Below, piece by piece: positions 28,647-64,000 of a stretch of DNA of 64,000 nucleotides. The position numbers and the translations under genes are program-made. How positions within the stretch are numbered: position 1 is the first letter of the stretch; each line of letters starts with the position of its first letter. Source of the stretch: Paracyclopina nana (Eukaryota > Arthropoda > Copepoda > Cyclopoida > Cyclopettidae); contig JAGUCH010000003.1 in assembly GCA_019096065.1 (NCBI GenBank), forward strand, positions 11,510,029 through 11,574,028, given 5' to 3'. The notes under the pieces are model-generated. The model was not told the DNA's origin. It was given only the letters and a program-made list of their open reading frames with translations, and did no database searches.

Positions 28647-29699
28647 TTAGGTTAGGTTAGGTTAGGTTAGGTTAGGTTAGGTTAGGTTAGGTTAGGTTAG
28701 GTTAGGTTAGGTTAGGTTAGGTTAGGTTAGGTTAGGTTAGGTTAGGTTAGGTTAGGTTAGGTTAGGTTAGGTTAGGTTAGGTTAGGTTAGGTTAGGTTAG
28801 GTTAGGTTAGGTTAGGTTAGGTTAGGTTAGGTTAGGTTAGGTTAGGTTAGGTTAGGTTAGGTTAGGTTAGGTTAGGTTAGGTTAGGTTAGGTTAGGTTAG
28901 GTTAGGTTAGGTTAGGTTAGGTTAGGTTAGGTTAGGTTAGGTTAGGTTAGGTTAGGTTGGGTTAGGTTAGGTTAGGTTAGGTTAGGTTAGGTTAGGTTAG
29001 GTTAGGTTGGGTTAGGTTAGGTTAGGTTAGGTTAGGTTAGGTTAGGTTAGGTTAGGTTAGGTTAGGTTAGGTTAGGTTAGGTTAGGTTGGGTTAGGTTAG
29101 GTTAGGTTAGGTTAGGTTAGGTTAGGTTAGGTTAGGTTAGGTTAGGTTAGGTTAGGTTAGGTTAGGTTAGGTTAGGTTAGGTTAGGTTAGGTTAGGTTAG
29201 GTTAGGTTAGGTTAGGTTAGGTTAGGTTAGGTTAGGTTAGGTTAGGTTAGGTTGGGTTAGGTTAGGTTAGGTTAGGTTAGGTTAGGTTAGGTTAGGTTAG
29301 GTTAGGTTAGGTTAGGTTAGGTTAGGTTAGGTTAGGTTAGGTTAGGTTAGGTTAGGTTAGGTTAGGTTAGGTTAGGTTAGGTTAGGTTAGGTTAGGTTAG
29401 GTTAGGTTAGGTTAGGTTGGGTTAGGTTAGGTTAGGTTAGGTTAGGTTAGGTTAGGTTAGGTTAGGTTAGGTTAGGTTAGGTTAGGTTAGGTTAGGTTAG
29501 GTTAGGTTAGGTTAGGTTAGGTTAGGTTAGGTTAGGTTAGGTTAGGTTAGGTTAGGTTAGGTTAGGTTAGGTTAGGTTAGGTTAGGTTAGGTTAGGTAGG
29601 GTTAGGTTAGGTTAGGTTAGGTTAGGTTAGGTTAGGTTAGGTTAGGTTAGGTTAGGTTAGGTTAGGTTAGGTTAGGTTAGGTTAGGTTAGGTTAGGTTA
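28647..29699 (+). repeat. Telomeric (TTAGG)n array 1
   Basis: About 210 uninterrupted pentamers, broken only by a few TTGGG variants and one GGTAGG. This is the canonical arthropod telomere repeat with the G-rich strand on +, pointing right. It follows a pyrimidine tract and is the most proximal array. Confidence 0.98.
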
Positions 29700-29720
29700 T
29701 CGTAACCCAGGCGATGATAC
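29697..29720. repeat. Module A left inverted terminus
   Basis: TTATCGTAACC (29697-29707) and CGATGATAC (29712-29720) are both exact complements of words at the module's right end (GGTTACGATAA at 35847-35857 and GTATCATCG at 35827-35835). Confidence 0.8.
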
Positions 29721-30956
29721 ATGTCCCTTCCGCCCCTAGCGCCCAGGGGCCTTGCCCCAGGGGCCAATGTCATTAATACAAAAGGACCCGATTTTTGTGC
29801 CCTACATTTGATATTAATGATGTTTTCAAGATTCTACCTATTCGTTTTCGAGCAAACGTCCTTTTTGTTGTTTTCCTTAATGTTTAGTGGAAAAAGGTGT
29901 CCCTTCCAAGGCCCACGGACCCGGGGGTGGCCCCAGGGCCCTGCCCTTTATATCCTAGCCTATTCATGCCACGCCCTACAACTTCTATTAATGAAATTTT
30001 TCAATCCACCTATCCGTTTGGCCCGCTCGTTTCATAAGTATCATCGTTTGAACCCGATTTTTCACTTTTTGGCCTCCATTTTCAACTTTGAGGCCAGGGT
30101 TGACCCCATTTTTGTAGGTGTGGTGGTCTGAAAAAAAAGACGTAAACTTAATTATTTTGTTGGGAACCCGATGGCATTGGTCCCGAGTTCTCGGGGCAAG
30201 CCGTTTGCCCTCCAGGCTTGGAAGGGACATCAATTTTGGACAGCCTGACCCCGCCAAGATTCAGAAGGAGTGGCCCAGGGGCCACACCCTCTCATTCTTA
30301 TTATGAAACTTGGGGTCTGTGAACCCCAATCAGTTGTCAAAATCGGGTTAGGACCCGATTTGGGGGTACCTTATTAGTGAACTGCACTTTTTGACATAAT
30401 GCCACCCCCCAGGTGGAGGTCAACTTCTACGTGGAGTGGCCTATCGGGTCGGCTGAGGTGTCCTCGGACAGGTTTTCAGGGGTGGAGAACCCAAATCTGC
30501 AGTCGGATTGGCGCTAGCTCCACTCCTAGTACCCGCAGGGTCCCAAATGGGGTACCCTATGTACTCCAACTCCCTCTTGGGGGGGTCTGACCCCAATGAC
30601 CCATAAAATAAAAGTTGTTCAGTTTGGCCTCAGCTTTCATTTGCTGTATCGCGCGACCCGATCGGACCGGAAATAGCGATACTGGGCGTTCGCGGTCCAT
30701 GTGGGCGCGCGCGGGTTTTGGGGCAAGTTAGGGCCCCAGGGGTAACTCGGGGGTCCTTTGAGATATCGGGACGTGCTCGGTGTCCTTGGTAGGGTTTTTG
30801 GGGGTGCTGAACCCGATTCTGGACCCCGATTTGGGCTACGAGGACCCGGTCCGCGACCCTGACTTGGGGCGTCACCCCAAAACTTTAACCCGCCCTAGAT
30901 GGCTCATTTTTCACCCAAACTCGATGAAACTTTGGATTCTCGCTCCCAGCACTTTC

Positions 30957-31190
30957 CTTTATGGAGCCTACTCAGCACAGTCAGCTGATTTCAAAACTAC
31001 TGAGTGGTTTTCTCAGCACTCGGTAGAGCCCAAACCGTAAGAGATATCAAAAAACTTATTTAGCAAAAGTTGCTCAGCACCCCAAAATATGTAAACATAC
31101 CGAATCGCAGCATCTCAGTTAAGCGACTCAGCACCCCAAAACGGCGAGATACAGCAAAGTCATTGAAGCAAAAGTTGTTGCAAATAAATC
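30957..31190. repeat. Module A internal inverted repeat, left arm
   Basis: About 234 bases (from TTTATGGAGCCTACTCAGCA to GTTGTTGCAAATAAATC). Its reverse complement, imperfect, is found at 34713-34947. Modules B and C have the same arrangement. Confidence 0.8.
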
Positions 31191-31465
31191 ACTGAGTTCA
31201 GAACTGGTCTTGTTTTTGAGCTAGGCCGCTTTTTACAAAATCGTCGAAAAATCCCTAAGGCTCTGGCCTTGGGAAACTCGACTTTCTCCTGAGTCATTTA
31301 ATTGACTTGACTATGAAGTCAAAAGTTGTAGAGGAGCTCAGCCTGACTTCAGAACAGTAAATTGATGTCTGCTGAGACGCTCTGTTGCTGAGATAGCGCT
31401 GAGCTCGGAGCACTATATAACTTCGTAAATGAAAATGCGCTGAGCTACTTTGAGTACTAATAAAA

Positions 31466-31885
31466 GTGATAGAGAATGTCAAGACGAATACATGGATGTA
31501 AAAAGAAGCCACCTGAGACGCTCCGTTGCGGAGATATCGCTCCCCAAAGTTTACTATATAGAGGCTTTGTTTACTTTTCATTTTGGGCTCGAATTCGGCT
31601 TGTTTTGGGGCCTAAAATTGCCCGAAATGGGTCAATTCTTCCTCCTAAGCTTCCTCTTATTGTTTTCTTGGACTTTTGCATGAATTTGAGGACTTTATAG
31701 CAGTCTAAAGTGGAATTTTCCGCGAAAAACGGCTCGCGTCAAATTTTGAGCGATCAAATAAAAGTCGGTCTACGGTCTTTGACACCTTGAAACCTTGTAG
31801 AGGAGGTTGCCCTGACTTCATAGCATCAAATTGGGGCAAAATATCTGGTCTAGAACCGGAGATATCGCGCGCCAAAGTTTACCGC
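31466..31885 (+). repeat. Module A internal block, copy 1
   Basis: About 420 bases from GTGATAGAGAATGTCAAGAC to CGCCAAAGTTTACC, with the shared word TCTTCCTCCTAAGCTTCC. Further copies are at 32300-32718 and 32930-33347. Confidence 0.85.
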
Positions 31886-32299
31886 TTAATAGCATCCGTC
31901 TGCTGAGTTTTACGGAGACAAGGAGCTGAGATATCTTGTTTACTATGTAGCAAAAAGTGTTCAGTTTGGTCTCCCATTTTCAAAACTGTAAAGATATCAA
32001 AAATCGGAGCATTTTTCGAATTTTCGTGTTGATTAGACAGATGAAACGCAGCCTTATGTACTACGTACTACATAGGGCTTTTCGTTAAGAAGTAGCGCCA
32101 GTAAAAGTGGACTTATGAACTTTGCTATGAAATGAAAAAATGATCTGCTGAGCCTCAGGATTCCATTGGTATAAATAGTTTTAAAATCGGACAATTACGA
32201 GCTGAGATAGCGCTGAGCGCCGGTACCGCTAAATAGCAGCCTAGCGGGTAAGTTTTACGGAGACTGAAAGCGGAGATGCTGAGTTGCTTACTTATAAAA

Positions 32300-32718
32300 G
32301 TGATAGAGAATGTCAAGACGAATCTCTGGGTGCAAAAAGAAGTGATCTGAGACGCTCCGTTGCTGAGATATCGCGGGTCGAAGTTTACTATATAGAGTCT
32401 TTGTTTACTTTTCATTTTGGGCCCGAATTCGGCTTGTTTTGGGGCCTAAAATTGCCCGAAATGGGTCAATTCTTCCTCCTAAGCTTCCTCTTATGGTTTT
32501 CTTAGACTTTTTCACGAATTTGAGTACTTTATTGCATTCTAGAGTGGAATTTTCCGCGAAAAACGGATCGCGTCAAATTTTCGCCGATCGATTTAAAGTT
32601 CAAATGCGGACTTGGACTGCTGATAAACCTTGTAGAGGAGGTTGCCCTGACTTCATAGAAACAAATTTGGGCCAGATATCTGGTCTAGAACCGGAGATAT
32701 CGCACGCCAAAGTTCATT
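32300..32718 (+). repeat. Module A internal block, copy 2
   Basis: Second copy, diverged in its 3' half (CGCCGATCGATTTAAAG in place of GAGCGATCAAATAAAAG). Confidence 0.85.
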
Positions 32719-32929
32719 GTAGTAAAAAATGTCCCTTCCATGGATTGCTCGCAAACGGGTTGCCCCCTGGCGTTGCCCTTTGAATCATGAATACATAAAG
32801 TCATTCTCTAGAACTTTTATTATTAAAGTTTTTAATTTTACCTATGATTTTTGGAATTGGCTCAGCACAAAAAGTGCTGAGATCGAGCGGGAGAGGTTGC
32901 TGAGATATGAAAATGACTATGAACCAAAA

Positions 32930-33347
32930 GTTGTAGAGAATGATCCCACGACTTCAAAACAGTAAATTGAAGTCAGCTGAGACGCTCCGTTGCGGAGATA
33001 TCGCGGGTCGAAGTTTACTACATAGAGACTTTGTTTACTTTTGCATTTGGGCCTGAATTCGGCTTATTTTGGGGCTTAAAACTGCCCGAAATGGGTCAAT
33101 TCTTCCTCCTAAGCTTCCTCTTATTGTTTTCTTGGACTTTTTCATGAATTTGAAGACTTTATTGCATTCTAAAGTGGAATTTTCCGCGAAAAACGGATCG
33201 CGTCAAATTTCGAGCGATCAAATTAAAGTCGGTCTACGTCCTTTGACACCTTGAAACCTTGTAGAGGAGGTTGCCCTGACTTCATAGCAACAAATTTGAG
33301 CCAGATATCTGGTCTAGAACCGGAGATATCGCGCGCCAAAGTTTACC
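32930..33347 (+). repeat. Module A internal block, copy 3
   Basis: Third copy. Its 3' half is nearly identical to copy 1, but its left edge (AAAAGTTGTAGAGAATGATC) differs. Confidence 0.85.
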
Positions 33348-34712
33348 GCTTTTTAGCATCCGTCTGCTGAGTTTTACGGAGACAAGGAGCTGAGCTATCT
33401 TGTTTACTATTTAGCAAAAAGTGTTCAGTTTGGTCTCCCGTTTCCAAAACTGTAAATAGTTCCAAAATCGGAGCATTTTTCGAATTTTTGCATGCTTAAC
33501 GAGTTTTAAGTACAGTGCTATGTACTATGCACTAAATAGAGCGTTTCGTTCTGAACTAGCGCAAGTAAAAGTGGAGATATCAAGTTTGCTATGAAGTAAA
33601 AGTAGTTTCTGCTAAGCCTCAGGATTCCATAGATGTAAACAGTTTTAAAATCGGACAACTACGAGCTGAGATAGTGCTGAGCGCTCAGCAGTACAGAACC
33701 AGCGGACTTGGAAGTGGACTTGTGGACTTGGCTTTGAAGTACAAAGTGATAGAGGAGCTCATCACGACTTCAGAACAGTAAATTGATCCGAGCTGTGACG
33801 CTCCGTTGCTGAGATATCGATCGTCAAAGTTTACTGCTGCTGAGCCCCCTGAAAAAGTGCTCATTTTCGCTGAGTTCTCCGATTGGGCTGAGACTTGGCA
33901 CAAATGATCTACTAGATGCCATGACTCAGCACACCAAAGGATTTGGTGCTCAGCAGCTCAGCAGCGGAGTTATTCAGCCAGGTATACTCAGCATAAAACC
34001 CTGCTCAGCAGAGAACCAGCTGAGCTGTGATAAAATCTGATGACACTTTCTAATAGCCCATAAGACAGTGATCATTTATCAGTAAAGACTTTTCATATAT
34101 CTCATCATTCTGCTGAGTTATTAAGTAAAAACCTGAAAATGGGGTCAAATGGGAGGCTGAATAACTCGGCTGCTGAGCGTTTTTGGGCATATGTTTACTT
34201 GAGATTATCTGCTCAGAATGTGACGGAGAACATTCGTACAAAGTTTCAGCTCAATCCGAGCACTTTGAAAAATCGGCCACTTTTTCTAAGGCTACCCCCT
34301 TAGGAAAACTCGACTTTTTGCCAAGTCATTTTATGGACTTGACTATGAACCAAGACTTGTAGAGGAGCTCGGCCTGACTTCAAAAACGTAAATTGAAGTG
34401 TGCTGAGACGCTCCGTTGCTGAGATATAGGGGGTCAAAGTCTCGAAATCGGGCCCCAGAAGGAGCGGTCTCTCAGAAAATTTCATAAAATAAGAAATGAT
34501 GGGGACATCAAGGGCTACTTTCATATCAAATTTCAGCTCTGTAGCTCAAGGTTTAGAGTTGCTGAGTCAGTTGGTTACTTTGCTGAGACTCGGTCAAAAT
34601 GATGTTTGATTTATTTGCAACAACTTTTGCTTCAATGACTTTGCTGTATCTTGTCATTTTTGGTTGCTGAGTCAGTTTACTGAGATGCTGAGACTTGGTC
34701 AAAATGATGTTT

Positions 34713-34947
34713 GATTTATTTGCAACAACTTTTGCTTCAATGACTTTGCTGTGTCTGCTCATTTTGGATTGCTGAGTCACTTGGCTGAGATGCTGAGACT
34801 TGGTATATAAGGGTATTTTGGGGTGCTGAGCAACTTTTGCTAAATAAGTTGTTTGATATCTCTCACCGTTTCTGAGATACAGAGTGCTGAGAAAGTGACT
34901 CAGCAGTTTTGAAATCAGCTGACTGTGCTGAGTTGGCTCCATAAAGG
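34713..34947. repeat. Module A internal inverted repeat, right arm
   Basis: Reverse complement of 30957-31190. A further partial copy of its first ~95 bases (GATTTATTTGCAACAAC onward) precedes it at about 34608-34707, so this arm is partly duplicated. Confidence 0.8.
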
Positions 34948-35826
34948 ACTCAGCTGTATCTCAAAAATCAGTTTTGGGCTCGTTCCGAGTGAAAATCTGC
35001 GAAAAAAACGGGGTCCATATTCGGGGTGGCCCCCCCCAAACGGGGTCAAAATCGGGGTCAGGGGGCCATAGTTAGGGTCTATGTAAGGTATATTGGGTCA
35101 GTAATGTGCTCAGTAGCTAAGAAACGGGTTATATAGTGGGGGCGGGGCCCAAAATCGGGGTCAAAATCGGGGTCCTAGGCCCCCTAGGGGTCATCTGGGG
35201 GGGTTGCGGTAGGTTGCGGTAGGTCGCGGTAGGGTAATGGGCGAATCGCTGAGCGATTCCCCAATGGGTGAAAAGTTAAAGTCCTTGTCTCTAGTCGTTT
35301 GCTCCGTCAGCTGGGGGTGGGGCTAACTTGGGGCCCGATCGGGGTAGAGGGCCAATTCCAACGCCAGTGCATAGCCCTGACCCTAAGGAACCCGGGGGTA
35401 CCAGCCCCGGGGCCCCCAGGCCACTGGGGGCGGGGCCAGGGGCGTTAGTGCAGTTGTTTGTAGTTTGGTCAAAAAAATACATAGTAGTATATATATACCC
35501 TATGTAGGTAACCTAGGTCCCAGAAAACCTTATGTAGTAAAGCTAGAGTTGGTGCTGGAGCAAAGTGGTCATAGGGAAAGTTGTTCATCTTGATGAGGGG
35601 CATCTTTTATATTAATGAAATTTTTCACCTAGGCCTAAGGCCTGGGAGCTGGGGCCTAACCCAGTTTCAAAATGTATTGAGGGCTGCCCCAAAAACGTAC
35701 ACGTGGAATCAGCTGATTTTTGGTGGAGAGGTGGGGGGGACCAAGGTCTATCACCTCACCAAAAATGAACTTCCGGTTCCAACGTTCAGGGGTGAGCATA
35801 CCCGGTATCATCAGTATCATCGGCAG

Positions 35827-35857
35827 GTATCATCGTTTATTGTACTGGTTACGATAA
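35827..35857. repeat. Module A right inverted terminus
   Basis: GTATCATCG (35827-35835) and GGTTACGATAA (35847-35857) complement the two left-end words at 29712-29720 and 29697-29707. Confidence 0.8.
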
Positions 35858-37284
35858 GTTAGGTTAGGATTGGGTTAGGTTAGGGTAGGGTTAGGTTAGG
35901 TTAGGTTTGCTTTGGTTAGGTTAGGTTAAGTTAGGTTAGGTTAGGTTAGGTTGGTTTAGGTTAGGTTAGGTTAGGTTAGGTTAGGTTAGGTTAGGTTAGG
36001 TTAGGTTAGGTTAGGTTAGGTTAGGTTAGGTTAGGTTAGGTTAGGATTAGGTTAGGTTGGGATTGGATTGGGTTAGGTTAGGTTAGGTTAGGTTAGGTTA
36101 GGTTAGGTTAGGTTAGGTTAGGTTAGGTTAGGTTAGGTTAGGTTAGGTTAGGTTAGGTTAGGTTAGGTTAGGTTAGGTTAGGTTAGGTTAGGTTAGGTTA
36201 GGTTAGGTTAGGTTAGGTTAGGTTAGGTTAGGTTAGGTTAGGTTAGGTTAGGTTAGGTTAGGTTAGGTTAGGTTAGGTTAGGTTAGGTTAGGTTAGGTTA
36301 GGTTAGGTTAGGTTGGGTTAGGTTAGGTTAGGTTAGGTTAGGTTAGGTTAGGTTAGGTTAGGTTAGGTTAGGTTGGGTTAGGTTAGGTTAGGTTAGGTTA
36401 GGTTAGGTTAGGTTAGGTTAGGTTAGGTTGGGTTAGGTTAGGTTAGGTTGGGATTAGGTTAGGTTAGGTTAGGTTAGGTTAGGTTGGGTTGGAGGTTAGG
36501 TTGGGTTAGGTTAGGTTAGGTTGGGTTAGGTTAGGTTAGGTTAGGTTAGGTTAGGTTAGGTTAGGTTAGGTTAGGTTAGGTTAGGTTAGGTTAGGTTAGG
36601 TTAGGTTAGGTTAGGTTAGGTGAGGTTAGGTTAGGATAGGGTAGGTTAGGTTAGGTGAGGTTAGGTTAGGTTAGGTGAGGTTAGGTTAGGTGAGGTTAGG
36701 TTAGGTTAGGTGAGGTTAGGTTAGGTGAGGTTAGGTTAGGTTAGGTTAGGTTAGGTTAGGTTGGGATTAGGTTAGGTTAGGTTGGGTTAGGATTGGGGTT
36801 AGGTTAGGTTAGGTTAGGTTAGGTTAGGTTAGGTTAGGTTAGGTTAGGTTAGGTTAGGTTGGGTTGGGTTAGGTTAGGTTAGGTTAGGTTAGGTTAGGTT
36901 AGGTTAGGTTAGGTTAGGTTAGGTTAGGTTAGGTTAGGTTAGGTTAGGTTAGGTTAGGTTAGGTTAGGTTAGGTTAGGTTAGGTTAGGTTGGGATTAGGT
37001 TAGGTTAGGTTAGGTTAGGTTAGGTTAGGTTAGGTTAGGTTAGGTTAGGTTAGGTTAGGTTGGGATTAGGTTAGGTTAGGTTAGGTTAGGTTAGGTTAGG
37101 TTAGGTTAGGTTAGGTTAGGTTAGGTTAGGTTAGGTTAGGTTAGGTTGGGATTAGGTTAGGTTAGGTTAGGTTAGGTTAGGTTAGGTTGTTAGGTTAGGT
37201 TAGGTTAGGTTAGGTTAGGTTAAGTTAGGCTAGGCTAGGATAGGTGAGGTTTGGTTAGGTTAGGTTAGGTTAGGTTAGGTTAGG
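35858..37284 (+). repeat. Telomeric (TTAGG)n array 2
   Basis: About 1.4 kb of TTAGG with more variants than array 1. It is degenerate at both edges, has a cluster of GTGAGG variants at about 36621-36730, and has recurrent GGGATTAGG and GGATTGG units. Orientation as in array 1. Confidence 0.97.
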
Positions 37285-40200
37285 ATAAGTTAACCTAAGC
37301 GATGATACATGTCCCTTCCGCCCCTAGCTCCCTGGGGCCTTTCCCTATCTGAAAACTTCATTAATACAAAATGACCCGATTTTCATGCTCTACATTTGGT
37401 ATTTTATGAGTCTTCAAGATTCACCTACGTTTTCGGCCGCAAAGTTGAAAAAACCACTTTTCCCTATGTTTCGGTCAAAAGGGGTGTCCCTTCCGTACCC
37501 TGTGGGCCCGGGGCTTTCCCTATTGACACGCCCTTTATATCCTAGCCTATTCATGCCACGCCCTACAACTTCTATTAGTGAAATTTTTTAATCCACCTAT
37601 CCGTTTGGCCCGCTCGCTTCATAAGTATCATCGTTTTAACCCGATTTTTCACTTTTTGGCCTCCATTTTCAACTTTGAGGCCAGGGTTGACCCCATTTTT
37701 GTAGGTAGAATGGGCTGAAAAAAAAACACCAAATTGATTTGAAACTCTGGGAACCCGATGGCGTTGGTCCCGTTCAAATAGGGACAGCGGCTTGCCCGCC
37801 AGAGGCGGAAGGGACATCACTTTCGGACTGCCTGACCCCGCCAAGATTCAGAAGGAGTGGCCCAGGGGCCACACCCTTTGAATCTTATTATGAAACCTGG
37901 GCTCTGGGAACCCCAATCAGTTGTCAAAGTCGGGTTAGGACCCGATTTGGGGGTACTTTATTACTGAACTGCACTTTTTGACAGGAAGCCACCCCCCAGG
38001 TGGAGGTCAACTTCTACGTGGAGTGGCCTATCGGGTCGGCTGAGGTGTCCTCGGACAGGTTTTCAGGGGTGAGGAATCCAAATCTGCTGTCAGATTGGCA
38101 CTAGCACCCCTCCAAGTACCCGAAGGGACCCAAATGTGGTACCCTGTGTACCCCAACTCCATCATGGGCGGGTCTGACCCCAATGACCCATTAATAAAAG
38201 TTACTCCCCTTGACCCCAGCTTTCGTTTGACGTATCGCGCGACCCGATCCGACCGCAAATAGCGAAAAAGGGCATTTTGCCCTCTCGGGTGTACCCCGGG
38301 GCTCAGGGGCAACTTGGCCATACTTTGAGATATCGGGACGTGCTCGGTGTCTAGGGTATGGTTTTTGGGGGTGCTGAACCCGATTCTGGACTCAGATTTG
38401 GGCTACGAGGACCCGGTCCGCGACCCCGACTTGGGGCGTCACCCCCAAACTTTAACCCGCTCTAAATGGCTCAATTTTCATCCAAATTCGATGAAACTTT
38501 GGATTCTGGCTCCCAGCACTTTCCTTTATGGAGCCTACTCAGCACAGTCAGCTGATTTCAAATCTGCTGAGTCGTTTTCTCAGCACTCGGTAGAGCCGGA
38601 ACGGTAAGAGATATGAAAAAACTTATTTAGCAAAAGTTGCTCAGCACCCCAAAATATGTAAACATACCGAATCTCAGCGTCTCAGTAAAGCGACTCAGCA
38701 CCCCAAAACAGAGAGATACAGCAAAGTCATTGAAGCAAAAGTTGTTGCAAATAAATCACTGAATTCAGAACTGGTCTTGTTTTTGAGCTAGGCCGCTTTT
38801 TAGGAAATCGTCGAAAATTCTCTAAGCCTCTGGCCTTGGGGAACTCGACTTTGTCCTGAGTCATTTAATGGACTTGACTATGAAGTCAAAAGTTGTAGAG
38901 GAGCTCAGCCTGACTTCAGAACAGTAAATTGATGTCTGCTGAGACGCTCTGTTGCTGAGATAGCGCTGAGCTCGGAGCACTATATAACTTCGTAAATGAA
39001 AATGCGCTGAGCTACTTTGAGTACTAATAAAAGTGATAGAGAATGTCAAGACGAATTCATGAGTTCAAATAGAAGTGAGCTGAGACTCTCCGTTGCTGAG
39101 ATATCGCGCGCCGAAGTTTACTATATAGACTTTGTTTACTTTTGCATTTTGGGCCCGAATTTGGCCTGTTTTGGGGCCTAAAACTACTCGAAATGGGGCA
39201 ATTCTTCCTCCTAAGCTTCCTCTTATTGTTTTCTTGGACTTTTTCATGAATTTGAAGACTTTATTGCATTCTAAAGTGGAATTTTCCGCAAAAAACGGAT
39301 CGCGTCAAATTTCGAGCGATCAAATTAAAGTCGGTCTACGGCCTTTGACACCTTGAAACCTTGTAGAGGAGGTTGCCCTGACTTCATAGCAACAAATTTG
39401 AGCCAGATATCTGGTCTAGAACCGGAGATATCGCGCGCCAAAGTTTACCGCTAAATAGAAGCCTAACTGCTGAGCTTTACGGAGACAAGGAGCTGAGATA
39501 TCTTATTTACTATGTAGCAAAAAGTGTTCAGTTTGGTCTCCCATTTCTAAAACTGTAAATAGATCCAAAATCGGAGCATTTTTCGAATTTTCGTATTGAA
39601 TAGACGGATGAAACGCAGCTCTATGTACTACGTACTACATAGGGCTTTTCGTTAAGAAGTAGAGCCAGTAAAAGTTGACTTATGAACTTTGCTATGAAAT
39701 GAAAAAATGATCAGCTGAGTCTCAGGATTCCATAGCCGTAAAGAGTTTTAAAATCGGACAATTACGAGCTGAGATAGCGCTGAGCGCTCAGCAGTACAAG
39801 TAAGCGGACTTGGAAGTGGACTTGTGGACTTGGCTTTGAAGTCCAAAGTGGTAGAGGAGCTCAGCCTGACTTCAGAACAGTAAATAGATCCTTTCTGTGA
39901 CGCTCCGTTGCTGAGATATCGATCGTCAAAGTTTACTGCTGCTGAGCCCCCTGAAAAAGTGCTCATTTTCGCTGAGTTGTCCGATTGGGCTGAGACTTGG
40001 TACAAATGATCTACTAGATGCCATGAGTCAGCAAACCAAAGGATTTGGTGCTCAGCAGCTCAGCAGCAAAGTTATTTAGCCAGATATGCTCAGCATAAAA
40101 CCCTGCTCAGCAGAGAACCAGTTGAGCTGGGATAAAATCTAATGCCACTTTCTAATAGCCCATAAGACAGTGATCATTTATCAATAAAGACTTTTCATAT

Positions 40201-52600: not shown

Positions 52601-55600
52601 TTGGGTTAGGTTGGGTTAGGTTGGGTTCAGAGTTAGGTTGGGTTAGACATTAGGTTCAGGTTGGGATTAGGTTAAGGTTAGGTTAGGTTAGGTTAGACCA
52701 GTTAGGTTAGGCATTAATGGTTAGGTTATGGGTTAGGTTAGGTTAGGTTGGGGTTAGGTTAGGATTAGGTTGGGTTAGGTTAGGTTAGGTTAGGTTGGAA
52801 TGTAAATTTAGGTTAGGTTAGGTTTGGATTAGGTTAGGTTAGGTTAGGTTAGGTTAGGTTAGGTTGGGTTGGAGTTAGGTTAGGTTAGGTTGGATTGGGA
52901 TTGGGGTTAGGTTGAATTGGGGTTAGGTTAGGTTAGGTTAGGTTAGGTTGGATTGGGTTAGGTTAGGATTAGAGTTAGGTTAGGTTAGGTTGATTGGGAT
53001 TAGGTTAGGTTAGGTTAGGTTAGGTTAGGTTAGGTTAGGTTAGGTTAGGTTAGGTTAGGTTAGAGTTGGGTTAGGTTGGGTTGGGATTAGGTTAGGTTAG
53101 GTTAGGTTAGGTTAGGTTAGGTTAGGTTAGGTTAGGATTAGGTTAGGTTTAAGGTTGGGATTAGGTTAGGTTAGGATTAGGTTAGGTTAGGTTAGAGTTA
53201 GGTTAGGTTGGGTTAGGTTAGGTTAGGTTAGGATTAGGTTAGGTTGGACAGGTTAGGTTAGAGTTAGGTTAGGTTAGGATTGGGATTAGGTTCAGGTTAG
53301 GTTGGGATTGGGATTGGGTTAGGTTAGGTTAGGTTAGGTTAGGATTAGGTTAGGTTGCCAGGTTAGGTTAGGATTGGGTTAGGTTAGGTTGGGTTAGGTT
53401 AGGTTCAGGTTAGGTTAGGTTAGGTTAGGTTGGAAGTTAGGATTAGAGTTAGGTTGGGTTAGGTTAGGTTAGGTTAGGTTAGGTTAGGAATTAGGTTAGG
53501 TTAGGATTAGAGTTAGGTTAGAGTTAGGATTAGGTTAGGTTAGGTTAGGATTAGGATTTCAGGTTGGGATTAGAGTTAGGTTAGGTTAGGTTAGGTTAGG
53601 TTAGGTTAGGTTAGGTTAGGTTAGGTTAGGTTATAGGTTAGGTTAGGTTAGGTTAGGTTGGGATTAAGGTTAGGTTAGGTTAGGTTAGGTTAGAGTTAGG
53701 TTAGGTTAGGTTAGGTTAGGTTGGGTTAGGTTAGGTTGGGATTAGGATTAGGTTGGGTTAGGTTGCAGGTTAGGTTAGGTTAGGTTAGGATTAGGATTGG
53801 GATTGCAGGATTAGGGTTAGGTTGGGTTAGGTTAGGTTAGGTTAGGTTAGGTTAGGTTAGGTTGGGATTAGGTTAGGTTAGGTTTAGGTTAGGTTAGGTT
53901 GGGATTGGAGTTAGGTTAGGTTAGGTTAGGTTAGGTTAGGTTAGAGTTGGAGGTTGGGATTGGAGGTTAGGTTAGGTTAGGTTAGGTTAGGTTAGGTTAG
54001 GTTAGGTTTAAGGTTAGGTTGGGTTGGGTTAGGTTGGGTTAGGTTAGGTTAGGATTAGGTTAGGTTGGGTTAGGTTAGGTTGATTAGGATTAGGATTAGG
54101 TTAGGTTAGGTTAGGTTAGGTTAGGTTAGGTTGAGGTTAGGTTAGGTTAGGTTGGGTTAGGTTAAGGTTAGGATTGGGTTAAGAGTTAGGTTAGGTTAGG
54201 TTAGGTTAGGTTAGGTTAGGTTGGGATTAGGTTAGGTTAGGTTAGAGTTAGGTTAGAGTTTAGGTTAGAGTTAGGTTAGGTTAGGTTAGGTTAGGTTAGG
54301 TTGGGTTAAGAGTTGGGTTAGGTTGGGTTAGGTTAGGTTAGGTTATGGAGTTGGGTTAGGTTAGGTTAGGTTAGGTTAGGTTAGGTTAGGTTAGAGTTAG
54401 GTTAGGAATTACAGGTTAGGTTAGGTTAGGTTAGGTTAGGTTAGGATTGGGTTAGGTTAGGTTAGGTTAGGTTGGGTTAGGTTGGGTTAGGTTAGGTTTA
54501 GGTTAGGTTAGGTTAGGATTGGAGTTAGGTTAGGTTAGGTTAGGATTAGGTTAGGTGCAGTTAGGTTAGGTTAGAGTTAGGTTAGGTTGGGTTAGGTTAG
54601 GTTAGGTTGGGATTAGGTTGGGTTAGGTTAGGTTAGGTTAGGTTAGGTTAGGTTAGGTTAGGTTGGGTTAGGTTAGGTTAAGGTTGGGATTAGGTTAGGT
54701 TAGGTTAGGTTAGGTTAGGTTAGAGTTAGGTTAGGTTAGGTTGGGATTGGAGTTAGGTTAGAGTTAGGATTAGGTTGGAGGTTAGGTTAGGTTAGGATTA
54801 GGGTTAGGTTAAGAGTTAGAGTTAGGATTTAGGATTAGGTTAGGTTAGGTTGGAGTTAGGTTAGGTTAGGTTGGGTTAGGTTAGGTTAGGTTGGGATTGG
54901 AGTTAGGTTAGGTTAGGTTAGGATTAGGTTGGGTTGGAGTTAGGTTAGGTTAGGATTAGAGTTAGGTTAGGGTTAAGGTTAGGTTAGGTTGGGTTAGGTT
55001 AGGTTAGGTTAGGTTGGGTTAGGTTTAGGTTGGAGTTAGGTTAGGTTAGGTTAGGTTAGGTTGGGTTGGAGGTTGGGATGGATTAGGTTAGGTTAGGTTA
55101 GGTTGGGTTGGGTTAGGTTAAGGTTAGGTTAGGTTAGGTTAGGTTAGGTTAGGTTAGGTTAGGTTAGGTTAGGATTAGGTTAGGTTAGGTTAGGTTAGGT
55201 TGGGTTGGAGTTGGGTTACGAGTTAGGTTAGGTTAGGTTAGGTTAGGATTAGGTTAAGGTTAGGTTAGGTTAGGTTAGGATTAGGTTAGGATTTAGGTTA
55301 GGTTAGGTTAGGTTGGAGTTAGGTTTAGGTTAGGTTGGAGTTAGGTTAGGTTAGGTTGGGATTAGGATTAAGGTTAGGTTGGGTTAGGTTAGGTTAGGTT
55401 GGAGATTAGGTTAGGTTGCAGGTTAGAGTTAGGATTGGGATTGAAGAGTTAGGTTAGGTTAGAGTTGGGTTAGGTTAGGTTAGGTTGGGTTAGGTTAGGT
55501 TAAGGTTAGGTTAAGGTTGAGGTTAGGTTGGGTTAGGTTAGGTTAGGTTGGTTGGGTTAGGTTAGGTTAGGTTAGGTTAGGTTAGGTTAGGTTAGGTTGG

Positions 55601-58600
55601 GGGTTAGGATTAGGTTGGGATTAGGTTGCAGGTTAGGTTAGGTTAGGTTGGGATTGGGTTAGGTTAGGGTTAGGTTAGGTTAGATAGTTAGGTTGAGGTT
55701 GGGTTAGGTTGGGTTAGGTTAGGTTAGGTTAGGTTAGGTTGGGATTAGGTTAGGTTAGGTTAGGTTAGGTTAGGTTGGGATTAGGGTTAGGTTAGGTTAG
55801 GTTAGGTTGGGTTGGGATTAGGTTAGGTTAGGTTGGGATTAGGTTGGGTTAGGTTAGGTTAGGTTGGAGGTTGGGTTACGGATTGGGTTAGGTTAGGTTA
55901 GGTTGGGGTTAGGTTAGGTTAGGTTAGGTTAGGTTAGGTTAGGATTAGGTTGGAGTTAGGTTGGGTTAGGTTAGGATTGGGTTAGGTTAGGATTTAGGTT
56001 AGGATTGGGTTAGAGTTAGGTTAGGTTAGGTTGGGTTAGGTTAGGTTAGAGTTAGGTTAAGGTTAGGTTGGGATTGGGATTAGGTTAGGTTAGGTTAGGT
56101 TAGGGTTAGAGTTAGGTTGGGTTAGGGATTAGGTTAGGTTAAGGTTCAGGTTAGGTTAGGTTAGGTTAGAGTTGGGTTAGGTTGATTGGGGTTAGGTTAG
56201 GTTAGGATTAGGTTAGGTTAGGTTAAGTTTAGGTTAGGTTAGGTTAGGTTAGGTTAGGTTAGGTTAGGTTACAGGGTTAGGATTGGGGTTAGGGACTAGG
56301 TTAGGTTAAGGTTAGGTTAGGATTAGGATTGAGGATTGAGTTAGGTTAGGTTAGGTTAGGTTAGGTTAGGTTAGGTTGGGTTAGGTTAGGTTAGGTTAGG
56401 ATTAGGTTAGGTTAGGTTAGGTTAGGTTAGGTTAGGTTAGGTTAGGTTAGGTTAGGTTGGGATTGGGTTAGGTTAGGTTGGGATTGGAGGTTAGGTTAGG
56501 ATTACTGGTTGGGTTAGGTTAGGTTAGGTTAGGTTAGGTTAGGTTAGGTTAGGTTAGGTTAGGTTAGGTTAGGTTAGGTTAGGTTGGAGTTAGGTTAGGT
56601 TAGGTTAGGTTAGGTTAGGTTGGGATTAGGTTAGGTTAGGTTAGGTTAGGTTAGGTTGGGTTAGGTTAGGTTAGGTTAGGTTAGGGTTAGGTTAGGTTAG
56701 GATTGGGATTAGGTTAGGTTAGGTTGGAGTTGGAGTTAGGTTAGGTTAGGTTAGGTTAGGTTAGGTTAGGTTAGGTTGGAGTTAGGTTAGGTTGGGGTTA
56801 GGTTAGGTTAGGTTAAGGTTAGGTTAGGTTAGGTTAGGTTAGGTTAGGTTAGGTTAGGTTAGGTTAGGTTAGGTTAGGTTAGGTTGGGATTGGAGTTAGG
56901 TTAGGTTAAGGTTGGGTTAGGTTAGGTTAGGTTAGGATTTAGGTTAGGTTAGGTTAGGTTGGGTTAGGTTAGGTTAGGTTAGGTTGGAGTTAGGTTAGGT
57001 TGGGTTAGGTTTAAGGTTAGGTTAGGTTGGGTTAGGTTAGGTTAGGTTAGGTTGGGTTAGGTTGGAGTTAGGTTAGGTTAGGTTAGGTTAGGTTGGGTTA
57101 GGTTAGGTTAGGTTAGGTTAGGTTAGGTTAGGTTGGGGTTAGAGTTAGGTTGGAGGTTGAGGTTGGGTTAGGTTGGGATTAGGTTAGGTTAGGTTAGAGT
57201 TGGGATTGGGTTAGGTTAGGTTAGGTTAGGTTAGGTTAGGTTAGGTTAGGTTAGGTTAGGTTGGGTTAGGTTAGGTTAGGTTAGGTTATGAGTTAGGTTA
57301 GGTTAGGTTGGAGTTAGGTTAGGTTAGGTTAGGTTAGGTTAGGTTAGGTTAGGTTGGGTTAGGTTAGGTTGGGTTAGGTTAGGTTAGGTTAGGTTAGGTT
57401 AGGTTAGGTTGGGTTAGGTTGGGTTAGGTTAGGTTAGGTTAGGTTAGGTTAGGTTAGGTTAGGTTAGGTTAGGTTGGAAGTTAGGTTAGGTTAGGTTGGA
57501 GATTAGGTTAGGTTAGGTTAGGTTAGGTTAGGTTGGGTTAGGTTAGGTTAGGTTAGGTTAAGGTTAGGTTAGGTTAGGTTGGTTAAGGTTGGAGTTAGGT
57601 TAGGTTAGGATTAGGATTAGGTTAGGTTAGGTTAGGTTGAGTTAGGTTAGGTTAGGTTAGGTTGGAGTTAGGTTAGGTTAGGTTAGGTTAGGTTAGGTTA
57701 GGATTAGAGTTAGGTTAGGTTAGGTTAGGTTAGGTTAGGTTAGGTTAGGTTAGGTTGAGTTGGGATTAGGTTAGGTTAGGTTAGGATTAGGATTAGGTTA
57801 GGTTAGGTTAGGTTAGGTTAGGATTAGGTTAGGTTAGGTTGAGTTGGGTTAGGTTGGGTTGGGATTAGGTTAGGATTGGGTTAGGTTAGGTTAGGTTGGA
57901 GTTAGGTTAGGTTAGGTTAGGTTAGGTTGGAAGTTAGGTTAGGTTGGAGTTAGGTTAGGTTAGGTTAGGTTAGCGTTAGGTTAGGTTGGAGTTAGGTTTA
58001 GGTTAGGTTGGGGTTAGGTTAGGTTGTGGGGTTAGGTTGGGTTGGGTTAGGTTAGGTTAGGTTAGGTTAGGTTAGGTTAGGTTAGGTTAGGTTAGGTTAG
58101 GTTAGGTTAGGTTAGGTTAGGTTGGGTTAGGTTAGGTTGGGATTAGGTTAGGTTAAGGTTAGGTTAGGTTAGGTTAGGATTAGGTTAGGTTAGGTTAGGT
58201 TGGGTTAGTTAAAGTTAGGTTGGGTTGGTTGAGGTTAGGTTAGGTTAGGTTGGGTTAGGTTAGGTTGGGTTAGGGATTAGGTTAGAGTTAGGTTAGGTTG
58301 GAGCAGGTTAGGTTAGGTTAGGTTAGGTTGGGTTGGGTTAGGTTAGGTTAGGTTAGGTTAGGTTAGGTTAGGTTAGGATTAGGTTAGGATTAGGTTGGGA
58401 CAGGTTAGGTTGGGTTAGGTTAGGTTAGGTTAGAAGTTGGAGTTAGGATTGGGTTAGGTTAGGTTAGGTTAGGTTAGAGATTAGGTTAGGTTAGGTTGGA
58501 GGTTAGGTTAGGTTAGGTTAGGATTAGGTTAGGTTAGGTTGGGATTGAGTTAGGTTAGGTTAGGTTAGGTTAGGTTAGGTTAGGTTAGGTTAGGATTAGG

Positions 58601-61600
58601 TTAGGTTAGGTTAGGTTAGGTTAGGTTGGGTTAGGTTAGGATTAGGTTAGTTGGGTTAGGATTGGGATTGGGTTAGGTTAGGTTGGGTTAGGTTAGAGTT
58701 CGATTGGGATTAGGTTAGGTTAGGTTGGGTTAGGTTAGGTTAGGTTAGGTTAGGTTGGAGATTAGGTTAGGTTAGGTTAGGTTGCAGGTTAGGTTAGGTT
58801 AGGTTAGGTTAGGTTAGGTTAGGTTAGAGTTAGGTTAGGTTGGAGGTTAGGTTAGAGTTAGGTTGGGATTTAGGTTAGGTTAGGTTAGGTTAGGTTTAAG
58901 AGTTAGGATTGGGGCCAGGTTGGGTTGCAGAGTTAGAGTTAGGTTAGGATTAGGTTGGGTTATTAGGTTAGGTTAGGATTGGGATTGGGATTGGAGTTAG
59001 GTTAGGTTAGGTTAGGTTAGGTTAGGTTAGATTAGGATTGATTTAGGATTATGGTTAGGTTAGGTTAGGTTGGGTTAGAGTTAGGTTGAGGTTGGGATTG
59101 GAGTTAGGTTAGGTTGGGATTGGGGTTAGGTTAGGTTGGGTTAGGTTAGGTTAGGTTAGGTTAGGTTAGGATTAGGATTAGGGATTAGGTTAGGTTAGGG
59201 TTAGGTTAGGTTAGGTTAGGTTAGGTTAGGTTAGGTTGGGTTAGGTTAGGTTAGGTTGGGTTAGGTTAGGTTAGGTTAGGTTAGGTTAGGTTGGGGTTAG
59301 GTTAGGTTGGGTTAGGTTAGGTTAGGTTAGGTTGGGTTAGGTTAGGTTAGGTTAGGTTAGGTTAGGTTAGGTTAGGTTAGGAATTAGGTTAGGTTAGGTT
59401 AGGTTGGGTTAGGTTAGGTTAGGTTAGGTTAGGTTAGGTTAGGTTAGGTTGGAGTTGGGTTAGGTTAGGTTAGGTTAGGTTAGGTTAGGTTAGGTTGGGT
59501 TAGGTTAGGTTAGGTTAGGTTAGAGTTAGAGTTAGGTTAGGTTGGGTTAGGTTAGGTTAGGTTAGGTTAGGAACAGTTGGAACCCGGTTAGGTTGGGTTA
59601 GGTTAGGTTAGGTTAGGTTAGGATTAGGTTAGGTTGGGTTAGGTTAGGATTAGGATTAGGTTAGGTTAGGTTAGGAATTAGGTTAGGTTAGGTTAGGTTG
59701 AGTTGGGATTAGGTTAAGTTGGGTTAGGTTAGTTGATTAGGTTAAGTTAGGTTAGGTTAGGTTGGAGGTTAGGATTAGGTTAGGTTAGGTTAGGTTAGGT
59801 TGATTGGGTTAGGTTAGGTTAGGTTAGGTTAGGTTAGGTTAGGTTGGGATTTAGGTTAGGTTAGGATTAGGTTAGGTTAGGTTAGGTTAGGTTAGGTTAG
59901 GTTAGGTTGGGATTAGGTTAGGTTAGGTTGGGTTAGGTTAGGTTGGGTTAGGATTGGAGTTAGGTTAGGTTAGGTTGGGTTAGGTTAGGTTAGGTTAGGT
60001 TAGGTTGGAGGTTAGGTTAGGTTGGGATTAGGTTAGGTTGGATTAGGTTGGGTTAGGTTAGGTTGGGATTGGGATTGGGTTAGGTTAGGTTGGGTTAGGA
60101 TTGGGTTAGGTTAGGTTAGGTTAGGTTAGGTTTAGGTTAGGTTAGGTTAGGTTAGGTTAGGTTAGAGTTAGGTTAGGTTAGGTTGGGTTAGGTTAGGTTA
60201 GGTTAGGTTAGGTTAGGTTAGGTTAGGTTAGGTTAGGTTAGGTTAGGTTAGGTTAGAGTTGGGTTAGGTTGGAGTTAGGTTAGGTTAAGGTTGGGACAGG
60301 TTGGGACCCAGGTTGGAGTTGGGTTAGAGTTAGGTTAGGTTAGGTTAGGTTAGAGTTAGGTTAGGTTGGGTTAGGTTAGGTTGGGTTAGGTTAGGTTGGA
60401 GGTTAGGTTAAGTTGGAGAGTTGGGATTAGGAGTTGGGTTAGGTTAGGTTAGGTTGGGTTTGAGTTAGGTTAGGTTAGGTTAGGTTAGGTTGGGGTTAGG
60501 TTAGGTTAGGTTAGGTTAGAGTTAGGTTAGGTTAGGTTGGAGGTTAGGTTAGGTTAGGTTAGGTTAGGTTAGGTTAGGTTGGGTTAGAGTTAGGAGGTTA
60601 GGTTAGGTTAGGTTGGGTTAGGTTAGGTTAGGTTGAGTTAGGTTAGGTTGGGTTAGGTTAGGTTAAGGTTAGGTTAGGTTAGGTTAGGTTAGGTTAGGTT
60701 AGGTTAGGTTAGGTTAGGTTAGGTTAGGTTGGGATTTAGGTTAGATTCAGAGTTGGAGTTAGGATTGGGTTAGGTTAGGTTAGGTTAGGTTAGGTTAGGT
60801 TAGGTTAGGTTAGGTTGGAGTTAGGTTAGGTTAGGTTAGGTTAGGTTAGGTTGGGTTAGGTTAGGTTAGGTTGGGTTAGGTTAGGTTGGGGTTGGGTTAG
60901 GTTAGGTTAGGTTGGATGGGTTAGGTTGGGATTGGGTTAGGTTGGGTTGGGTTAGGTTGGGTTGGGTTAGGTTAGGTTAGGTTGGGTTAGGTTAGGTTGG
61001 GTTGGAGGTTAGGTTGGGTTAGGTTGGGTTAGGTTAGGTTGAGTTAGGTTAGGATTAGGTTAGGTTAGGTTAGGTTGGAGGTTAGGTTAGGTTAGGTTAG
61101 GTTAGGTTAGGTTGAGTTAGGATTAGGTTGTAGGTTAGGTTAGGTTAGGTTAGGTTAGGGATTAGGTTAGGTTAGGTTAGGTTAGGTTAGGTTTAGGTTA
61201 GGTTAGGTTAGGTTGAGTTAGGTTGGAGGTTAGGTTAGGTTAGGTTAGGTTGGGATTGGTTTAGGTTAGGTTAGGTTAGGTTAGGATTAGGTTAGGTTAG
61301 GTTAGGTTGGAGTTAGGTTAGGTTAGGTTGGGACATAGGTTAGGTTGGGTTAGGTTAGGTTAGGTTAGGTTAGGTTAGGTTAGGTTAGAGATTAGGTTGG
61401 GTTAGGATTAGGTTAGGAGTTGAGGATTAGGTTAGGTTAGGTTAGAGTTGGAGTTAGGTTAGGTTAGGTTAGGTTAGGTTAGGTTAGGTTAGGATTAGGT
61501 TAGGTTAGGTTAGGTTAGGTTAGGTTAGGTTAGGTTGGAGTTAGGTTGGGTTAGGTTAGGATTGGGATTAGGTTAGGTTAGGTTAGGATTGGGTTAGGTT

Positions 61601-64000
61601 AGAGTTAGAGTTGGATTAGGTTAGGTTAGGTTAGGTTGGGTTAGGTTAGGTTAGGTTAGGTTAGGTTAGGTTAGGTTAGGTTAGGTTAGGTTGGGTTAGG
61701 TTAAGGTTAGGTTAGGTTGGGTTAGGTTAGGTTAGAGTTAGGTTAGGTTAGGTTGGGATTGGGATTACCAGGTTGGGTTAGGTTAGGTTAGGTTAGGTTA
61801 GGATTACAGGTTAGGTTAGGTTAGGTTAGGTTGGGTTAGGTTAGGTTAGGTTAGGTTAGGATTAGGTTAAGGAGTTAGGTTAGGTTAGGTTAGGTTGGGT
61901 TAGGATTAGGTTAGGTTAGGTTGGGATTAGGTTTAAGGTTAGGTTAGAGTTAGGTTAGGTTGGAAGTTAGGATTAGGATTGGGATTAGGTTAGGTTGGAG
62001 TTAGGTTAGGTTAGGTTAGGTTGGGTTAGGTTAGGTTAGGTTAGGTTGGACAGTTAGGTTAGGTTAGGTTAAGGTTAGGTTAGGTTAGGTTAGGTTAGGT
62101 TGGTTAGGTTGGGTTAGGTTAGGTTAGGTTGGGATTCAGGTTAGGTTGGGTTAAGGTTAGGTTGCAGGTTAGGTTGGGTTAGGTTAGGTTAGGTTAGGTT
62201 AGGTTAGGTTAGGTTAGGTTAGGTTAGGTTAGGTTGGGATTACAGAGTTGGGTTAGGTTAGGTTAGGTTGGGTTAGGAATTAGGTTAGGTTAGGTTAGGT
62301 TAAGGTTGGGTTAGGTTGGGATTAGGTTAGGATTGGTTGGGTTGGGTTAGGTTAGGTTAGGTTAGGTTAGGTTAGGTTAGGTTAGGTTAGGTTAGGTTAG
62401 GTTGGGTTAGGTTAGGTTGGGATTAGGTTAGGTTAGGTTGGGTTAGGTTGGGTTAGGTTAGGTTAGGTTGGGTTAGGTTAGGTTAGGTTGGGTTAGGTTG
62501 GGTTAGGTTAGGTTGGGATTAGGTTAGGTTAGGTTAGGTTAGGATTTAGGTTAAGGTTGGGGTTAGGTTGGGTTGTAGGTTAGGTTAGGTTAGGTTAGGT
62601 TAGGTTAGGTTAGGATTAGGTTAGGTTAGGTTAGGTTAGGTTGGGATTGGGGTTAGGTTAGGATTAGGTTAGGTTGGAGGTTAGGTTGGGATTAGGATTG
62701 AGTTAGGTTGGGTTAGGTTGGGTTAGGTTAGGTTAGGTTAGGTTAGGTTAGGTTAGGTTGGAAGTTGGGGTTGGGTTAGGTTAGGTTAGGATTAGGTTAG
62801 GTTGGGTTAGGTTAGGTTAGGTTAGGTTAGGTTAAGGTTAGGTTAGGTTAGGTTAGGTTAGGTTAGGGTTAGGTTAGGTTAGGTTAGGTTAGGTTAGGTT
62901 AGGTTAGGTTAGGTTAGGTTAGGTTAGGTTAGGTTAGGTTCAGGTTAGGTTAGGTTGGGATTAGGTTAGGTTAGGTTAGGTTAGGTTAGGTTAAGGTTAG
63001 GTTGGGATGGGTTAAGGTTAGGTTGGAGTTAGGTTAGGTTAGGTTGGGTTAGGTTAGGTTAGGTTAGGTTAGGTTAGGTTAGGTTAGGTTAAGAGTTAGG
63101 TTGGGATTGGGTTAGGTTAGGTTAGGTTAGGTTACGGTTAGGTTAGGTTAGGTTAGGTTAGGTTAGGATTAGGATTAGGTTAGGTTGAGTTAGGTTAGGT
63201 TAGGTTAGGTTAGGATTGGAGTTAGGATTAGGTTAGGTTAGGTTAGGATTGGGGTTAGGTTAGGTTAGGTTAGGTTAGAGTTAGGTTGGAGGTTGGATTA
63301 GGTTGGGTTAGGTTAGGTTAGGTTAGGTTGGAGGTTAGGTTAGGATTAGGTTAGGTTGGGTTAGGTTAGGATTGGGATTGGGTTAGGTTAGGTTGGGTTA
63401 GGTTGGGTTAGGTTAGGTTAGGTTTAGGTTAGGTTAGAGTTAGGGTTAGGTTGAGGTTAGGTTAGGTTAGGTTAGGTTAGGTTAGGATTAGGTTGGGTTA
63501 GGTTAGGTTAGGATTGAGTTAGGTTGGTTAGGTTAGGTTAGGTTAGGTTGGGTTGGGATTGGGATTGGTTGGGTTAGGTTAGGTTAGGTTGGAGTTAGGT
63601 TAGGTTAGGTTAGGTTAGGTTAGGGTTTAGGTTAGGATTAGGTTAGGTTAGGTTAGGTTAGGTTAGGTTGGAGGTTAGGTTAGAGTTAGGTTCACAGAGT
63701 TGGGTTAGGTTAGGTTAGGTTAGGTTAGGTTAGGTTGGGTTAGGTTAGGTTAGGTTAGAGTTGGGTTTAAAATTGGGTTAGGTTAGGTTAGAGTTAGAGT
63801 TAGGTTGGGATTAGGTTAGGTTAAGGTTAGGTTAGGTTAGGTTAGAGTTGGATGGGTTAGGTTGGTTAGGTTAGGTTGGGATTAGGTTAGGTTAAGGACT
63901 TAGGTTAGGGTTAGGTTAGGTTAGGTTGGGATTAGGTTGGAGTTTAGGTTGGGTTTAGGTTTGGGTTAGGTTAAGGTTTAGGTTGGGTTGGGATTGGTAG
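49634..64000 (+). repeat. Terminal telomeric (TTAGG)n array 4, reaches window end
   Basis: More than 14.3 kb of TTAGG-derived sequence running off the right edge. It is interrupted throughout by GAGTTAGG, GGGATTAGG, TTAAGG, TTGCAGG and similar variants. It is most likely the true chromosome end, with much of the irregularity due to base-calling. No unique sequence occurs inside it. Confidence 0.95.

Follow-up and report, generated by a model that had tools for sequence, protein, structure and literature searches.

In yeast, the Y' element lies in one orientation and encodes a helicase, and the telomere-invading mobile elements known to us (TRAS/SART, HeT-A, MoTeR and Terminons) are retroelements. 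The degenerate part of Y' and of TelKO in N. castellii is internal rather than distal, according to the consulted portion of PMC12408736, and the consulted portions of the reports on TALT in C. elegans (PMC4595603) and on TelKO (PMC12408736) present recombination cassettes and do not describe transposon-like ends. Here we analyzed a 64,000-nucleotide stretch of the copepod Paracyclopina nana (the window, C3:11510029–11574028), in which position 64000 is the final base of contig C3 (11,574,028) and three related non-coding modules of 6.2, 4.7 and 6.5 kb lie between four TTAGG arrays.

We read these modules as a non-autonomous, non-coding mobile element that resides in TTAGG repeats and is locked in orientation, with recombination reshuffling it and telomerase probably healing it; the mechanism is the part that we infer, and we give this reading a probability of about 0.47. 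What this analysis adds is mirrored tips of 11 bp and, at fixed positions, short sites of two kinds (five B and three A). Array calls and module alignments confirmed the original prediction of four arrays in one orientation, with TTAGG on the + strand in 4/4, and three collinear modules:

28647..29696, + strand: TTAGG array 1 (proximal), 204 exact units, density 0.97
29697..35858, + strand: module M1 (C3R_1), 6162 bp, tips TTATCGTAACC / GGTTACGATAA, 11-bp perfect terminal inverted repeat
35859..37284, + strand: TTAGG array 2, 243 units
37285..41961, + strand: module M2 (C3R_2), 4677 bp, tips ATAAGTTAACC / GATTGACTTAT
41962..43156, + strand: TTAGG array 3, 230 units
43157..49634, + strand: module M3 (C3R_3), subfamily of M1, indel-rich (likely unpolished)
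about 49635..64000, + strand: TTAGG array 4, terminal, reaching the contig end, low density, likely consensus errors

Main-block identity was 89–91% between M1 and M2, 91–92% between M1 and M3 and 79–89% between M2 and M3, and positions 1–28640 of the window contained no module match longer than 80 bp at E 1e-10. Array 4, called by script from 49597, contained 1911 exact units over 14.4 kb, in line with the predicted length of more than 14 kb, at a density of only 0.66 (82% matches, 10% indels). In the main-block alignment of M3 with M1 (4,688 columns), gap openings numbered 219 against 62 mismatches, and because of this excess of indels we read M3 and array 4 as probably badly polished, with uncertainty in the length of array 4, its 'variants' and the exact sequence of M3; a literal reading of this error-rich part is untenable. 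These errors, as well as the N gaps after the modules C6R_3 and C5R_1, would suit an assembly artefact as the source of the whole pattern, but the junctions are precise and the same at many contig ends, where linkers and subfamilies differ, which makes such an origin hardly credible.

Mirrored tips and co-varying sites

In all four subfamilies (M1, M2, T3 and T4), TTAGG immediately precedes the left end of the module and GTTAGG immediately follows its right end, an arrangement compatible with a target-site duplication of 1, 6 or 11 bp. The tips are mirrored, with TTATCGTAACC at both ends of M1. Terminal inverted repeats were present in the 20 modules in which both tips were read, and 19 of them had 0–4 mismatches of 11 between the ends (0 in M1, 1–2 in M2, 3 in T3, 2–3 in T4 and 4 in the left-deleted C5R_1), the remaining one being the error-rich C3R_3 with 7. 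Behind the tips lie two sets of short sites, iterons B and sites A:

29713..29720, − strand: M1 iteron B1 (GATGATAC)
29722..29731, + strand: M1 site A1 (TGTCCCTTCC)
29898..29907, + strand: M1 site A2
30038..30045, + strand: M1 iteron B2 (GTATCATC)
30220..30229, − strand: M1 site A3 (reverse)
35805..35834, + strand: M1 right-end iterons B3–B5 (three GTATCATC)
37301, 37625, 41908, 41917 and 41930: M2 B sites
37310, 37485 and 37807: M2 A sites

Within a module, B sites are located at position ~17 (reverse) and at 341, and three more start 54, 45 (T4, 44) and 32 bp before the right terminus. Representatives of M1, M2 and T4 contain five B sites and that of T3 six, with the extra one at 192, compared with a mean of 0.09–0.30 per module and a maximum of 3 in 200 first-order Markov simulations of each. 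The B version is GTATCATC in M1 and M2, GGATCATC in T4 (final copy AGATCATC) and CGATCATC in T3 (final copy TGATCATC), and no B site of another version occurs in the representatives. A sites are located at 26, at ~201 and, in reverse, at ~523, and read TGTCCCTTCC in M1 and M2, CGTCTCTTCC followed by TGTCTCTTCC in T4, and TGTATCTTCC in T3. All three A sites were present and concordant in 23 of the 26 copies recovered by their left ends (see below); C5R_1 retained two, and C3R_3 and a relic one each, also concordant. There are thus three site versions in total, and every readable outer copy in a module has the same version. Deviations were a B1 that C2L_1 and C5R_1 lack and that differs by one base in C7L, a B1 reading TGATCATC instead of CGATCATC in the C5R fragment, and a B2 that was not found in C3R_3 and C7L. 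A-like half-sites inside M1, T4, C6L and C7L also have the version of their own module. Judged from sequence, these co-varying ends resemble candidate cis-acting ends that co-evolve with a trans-acting protein.

The same covariation would be expected if the modules were a structured non-coding RNA gene at telomeres, with the sites forming helices (B1 with B2, A2 with A3), since each of these two pairs consists of reverse complements that vary in step. For the left 0.76 kb of six copies, consensus folding gave −170 (+ strand) and −186 (− strand) kcal/mol, compared with −96 to −118 in four column shuffles. However, A1 and A2, being direct repeats, have no way of pairing mutually and yet share one version, 4/5 B copies are in one orientation, and changes on both sides were found in only 19–23 of 171–186 pairs, against 8–15 in shuffles. 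No Rfam match reached the gathering score in window positions 28000–50500. After consensus folding we keep this idea as a weak rival, and a very improbable one.

Divergence along the module was compared in six pairs, using one representative per subfamily. It amounted to 22.6–34.9% at positions 17–349 (6 gap openings per 574 mismatches), 11–18% at 350–700 (0 per 299) and 4–14% at 701–1400 (11 per 390), and at the right end to 34% in the last 60 bp and 24% in the last 61–200 bp with no gap openings; the last 500 bp contained none per 476 mismatches. M1 and T4 are 35% apart at 17–349 and 4–5% apart at 701–1400. With ends so far apart and interiors so close, the alignments indicate that interiors seem to have been exchanged between subfamilies while the ends stayed subfamily-specific. 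Because the ends are mirrored, carry sites and diverge fast, yet are matched within a module, a mobile element is favored over a passive subtelomeric repeat.

Distribution, truncation and exchange at chromosome ends

When the left 1.5 kb of M1 was used as a query (best 40 of 81 candidates scored), 26 left-end matches were recovered, which comprise 21 modules, 2 short truncated copies, 2 copies without a detected right end and 1 relic. Twenty-five of them are located within 48 kb of contig ends, the exception being the relic on C1 about 56 kb in (392 bp, 38 kb further in than the TTAGG arrays at the right end of C1). All 26, the relic included, share one orientation, '−' at low-coordinate and '+' at high-coordinate ends, so that the left tip faces the centromere. 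Modules or truncated modules are present at 11 of 20 contig ends (both ends of C2, C3, C5 and C6, the left end of C7, the right end of C9 and a single end of C10; C4 and C8 ends were not read), and each of the 20 terminal right ends that were read (best 40 of 72 right-end candidates scored) has a left-end partner. For the left-tip pattern, TTAGG flank included, there were 19 exact matches, 19/19 within 48 kb of contig ends and in one orientation, and 14 further matches at one mismatch, namely 2 more module tips, 3 opposite-strand tips and 9 scattered ones (reversed control, 13). The right-tip pattern had no exact match, 16 matches at one mismatch, all at contig ends (≤48 kb) and in one orientation; two mismatches gave 37, located in arrays or at other sites (reversed control, 22). 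The M1-type tip matched exactly twice (C3 and C6, both terminal), and at up to one mismatch 50 times versus 189 in the control. The right end of C1 contains TTAGG arrays from 17,754,369 onward in which tip-pattern searches found no module tip, and the element therefore looks dispensable for a chromosome end.

The original prediction of a telomere-associated element is borne out by the complete ends, which adjoin TTAGG at contig ends. TTAGG-flanked copies at many ends, also predicted, describe the complete modules but not the interior relics and fragments on C1, C2, C3 and C9. Specificity of the whole module for telomeres has to be given up, because its interior also occurs in dispersed foldback-like elements at internal sites:

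30955..35184, + strand: M1 interior common to dispersed foldback-like elements (M1 about 1259–5488)
30955–31191 and 34712–34948: inverted arms of the M1 interior, about 238 bp

Two dispersed relatives were read from the interior search (best 40 of 142 candidates scored). The inverted arms are 1.78 kb long and 99.9% identical in the element at C7:823676–830440, and 92% identical in a copy on C6; by our own reading of the flanks, the two elements are bordered by the 8-bp duplications CGAAAACA and CTGCTGGG. Neither contains a B site or TTAGGTTAGG, and the C6 copy contains one A-like half-site. Two dispersed copies, on C3 and C9, extend the similarity rightward to M1 5738, so the border of the common interior is not sharp. 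The foldback label is based on the long, internally repetitive inverted arms that these two relatives, and not the telomeric modules, have at their own ends.

Modules are stacked with TTAGG linkers of 25 bp to 1,867 bp, and stacks combine subfamilies (T3-M2-M1 at the right end of C6, M1-M2-M1 at that of C3); the left end of C3 has six modules and one truncated copy. Compared over the left 1.48 kb without counting gaps, C2L_2 shows 100% identity with both C5L_1 and its neighbor C2L_3, and C3R_1 is 98.1% identical to C6R_3, compared with 85.0% to its neighbor C3R_2 (M1 versus M2); C3R_2 in turn is 98.2% identical to C3L_6 at the other end of its own chromosome and 98.0% to C6R_2. Many, though not all, nearest relatives are thus on other chromosomes. 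In 9 of the 21 modules, 1.0–1.3 kb of interior is unread.

The truncated copy at the left end of C3 consists of M2 1–612 and runs straight into TTAGG, and that at the right end of C5, T3-type and 655 bp long, runs into TTAGG at an internal GGGTTAGG. For C6L and C7L, the right-end search (best 40 of 72), tip-pattern and interior searches detected no right end, and we infer distal truncation. The proximal end is kept in 5/5 cases, as read in C3L and C5R, presumably in C6L and C7L, and in the C1 relic, which is a left end; an interior relic at C9:5030939 keeps the right end only. A full-length internal donor was not found among the best 40 of 81 left-end and 40 of 72 right-end candidates or by tip-pattern searches. 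A partial TERT RNA-binding domain at C4:2280140 (E 2.6e-8) makes healing by telomerase plausible, and broken copies were probably healed in this way.

Much of this distribution would also arise if the modules were ancient TTAGG-flanked blocks copied through break-induced replication or circles with no element-specific enzyme, as in Y', TelKO or TALT. Such a cassette accounts for the single orientation, the mixed stacks, the many modules whose neighbors are no closer to them than copies on other chromosomes are, the C2L copies equally close to one another, the M1–T4 exchange of interiors and the linkers of 25 bp to 1.9 kb. Neither mirrored tips nor co-varying sites would be predicted from it, no full-length internal donor was found in the searches above, and the telomeric copies that are truncated (two read, two probable) have lost their distal part, the reverse of Y' and TelKO in the consulted portion of PMC12408736. 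We regard recombination by itself as a doubtful explanation, although it appears to act on the interiors as well.

Two side observations concern the same regions. The left end of C3 starts inside a module right tip (C3:1–23) with no assembled TTAGG cap, and CCAGG-type repeats lie beside short TTAGG runs on C10 just after 259392 and on C3 just distal of 12863, possibly a second subtelomeric satellite.

Coding capacity and proposed mechanism

Ten module open reading frames (ORFs) from the window, limited to those of 93–136 aa, gave no Pfam match above the cut-off, and among these scanned ORFs no telomere-linked helicase or transposase was found. The longest ATG ORF in 10 modules is 138 aa. An antisense ORF of 123–138 aa recurs in 9/10 modules and was rejected as a gene, given that it lies within an internally repeated region and its two window copies score sub-threshold in Pfam. 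In agreement with the original prediction, the tested ORFs encode no reverse transcriptase, and none of the best 150 of 658 RVT_1 matches is located in the terminal 45 kb of contigs of known length (all but C4 and C8). The predicted absence of poly(A) also stood: the left and right junctions read contain no A-tail or A-run. TRAS/SART LINEs would be expected to leave a 3' A-tail at one junction and a Helitron to have a CTRR-type end; neither was seen, and Helitron and LINE-like ends were dropped. Among transposase superfamilies, MULE was searched in the genome, with 5 matches, none tied to the tips. One of these lies at C1:17718506, 2.1 kb beyond the C1 relic; it was seen at this single place with five matches in the genome, and was therefore not taken as a partner.

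These results bear on an RNA-mediated non-autonomous element of the HeT-A or MoTeR2 kind, or one that uses a TRAS/SART-type enzyme in the manner of a SINE, in which the RNA 3' end would be at the left tip, priming would come from TTAGG and the distal end would be 5'-truncated. Fixed orientation and the truncations that keep the proximal end fit target-primed reverse transcription, and SART and TRAS target TTAGG at fixed sites, each in its own orientation (PMC7265360, in the portion consulted). The left tip has no A-tail, however, neither mirrored tips nor iterons at both ends would be expected, RVT_1 matches are lacking near the ends in the sample above, and the C9 relic retains the right end only. 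We consider this route improbable.

Under the reading as a mobile element, a mode that is locked to its target or attached to ends would agree with the single orientation and the loss of distal parts, while leaving some room for the RNA route. Tentatively, and with less assurance than for the reading as such, we propose a DNA-level element specific for telomere repeats, whose cassette a trans-acting protein would place in TTAGG or onto ends in a single orientation, using fast-diverging, subfamily-specific end recognition. A putative recombinase or transposase would recognize the A and B sites and insert the element in TTAGG, or add it onto TTAGG, always the same way round, and the sites would co-evolve with this protein. 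Telomerase may then re-cap the chromosome end and heal broken copies, and recombination between chromosome ends may swap interiors and contribute to the building of stacks.

Several points weigh against this reading. The searches above uncovered neither a transposase or recombinase nor an autonomous partner, no empty or freshly filled TTAGG site was found, and repeat flanks allowing 1, 6 or 11 bp cannot prove a target-site duplication. Ordinary DDE transposons insert in both orientations, unlike the 26/26 left-end matches in one. The A copies, compared in 58-bp windows, have a mean identity of 0.58 within a module versus 0.57 at the same position in other subfamilies and 0.50 at different positions, so that A concordance is confined to a short core, and an A-like half-site in two T3 interiors (about 2,450) has the M version. 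Gene conversion inside a module could also homogenize sites, and with only four subfamilies and three versions the covariation rests on few independent events. The interiors of 9/21 modules also remain unread over about 1–1.3 kb.

If true, the reading would provide a DNA-level route by which sequence colonizes telomerase-type telomeres, via a non-coding cassette with matched, co-evolving ends, and it is testable, since it would follow from the A and B sites that a protein binds them and that mobility is subfamily-specific. Among the titles and abstract openings surveyed, none announced a TTAGG-inserted element with inverted tips.

Beside the telomere, a ryanodine-receptor ORF is found among the window ORFs at 268–3063, 4802–5854 and 19799–20947; one of its matches is 96% identical, and the best named ones are arthropod, with 62–66% identity over 95–99% of the query. 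The remaining ORFs close to the telomere resemble what we take to be SOCS-type and Pax-type genes.

Comparison with known systems

En/Spm and Tn7 combine short terminal inverted repeats with several asymmetric subterminal binding sites, and Tn7 inserts in one orientation. The modules likewise have short terminal inverted repeats and candidate subterminal sites, but differ in tips and target and have no known transposase. With foldback or Galileo-like elements, they share an interior that is common to dispersed elements with inverted arms of about 1.8 kb and 8-bp duplications, and differ in their other, short tips, their location in TTAGG and their arms of about 238 bp.

Restriction to telomere repeats or chromosome ends and the occurrence of truncated copies are shared with TRAS/SART and the fungal MoTeR/FoTeR. 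All of these are non-LTR retrotransposons with reverse transcriptase, according to the portions consulted of PMC7265360 and PMC12857005, whereas the tested module ORFs encode no recognizable protein and the tips are mirrored. TALT1 and TALT2 of C. elegans are also genomic blocks flanked by telomere-like sequence and copied to many ends (PMC4595603, in part); they were found in telomerase-deleted survivors and have an internal donor, as far as that source was consulted, whereas a TERT domain is present here and no full-length internal donor was found in the searches described.

The analogy with Y', which the original prediction had named as the nearest, holds for a block between telomere-repeat tracts at chromosome ends in one orientation. 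Y' and TelKO likewise are repeat blocks beside telomere repeats, at a subset of ends, with length variants and spread between ends, as described for TelKO in the consulted part of PMC12408736. The loss of an internal part, typical of them, was not seen in telomeric copies, and the interior relic on C9 keeps its right end only. The analogy fails where the modules have mirrored tips, two co-varying sets of sites, no helicase among the scanned ORFs, stacks of mixed subfamilies separated by TTAGG, and truncation that is distal, opposite to the internal truncation of Y' and TelKO (PMC12408736, same portion).

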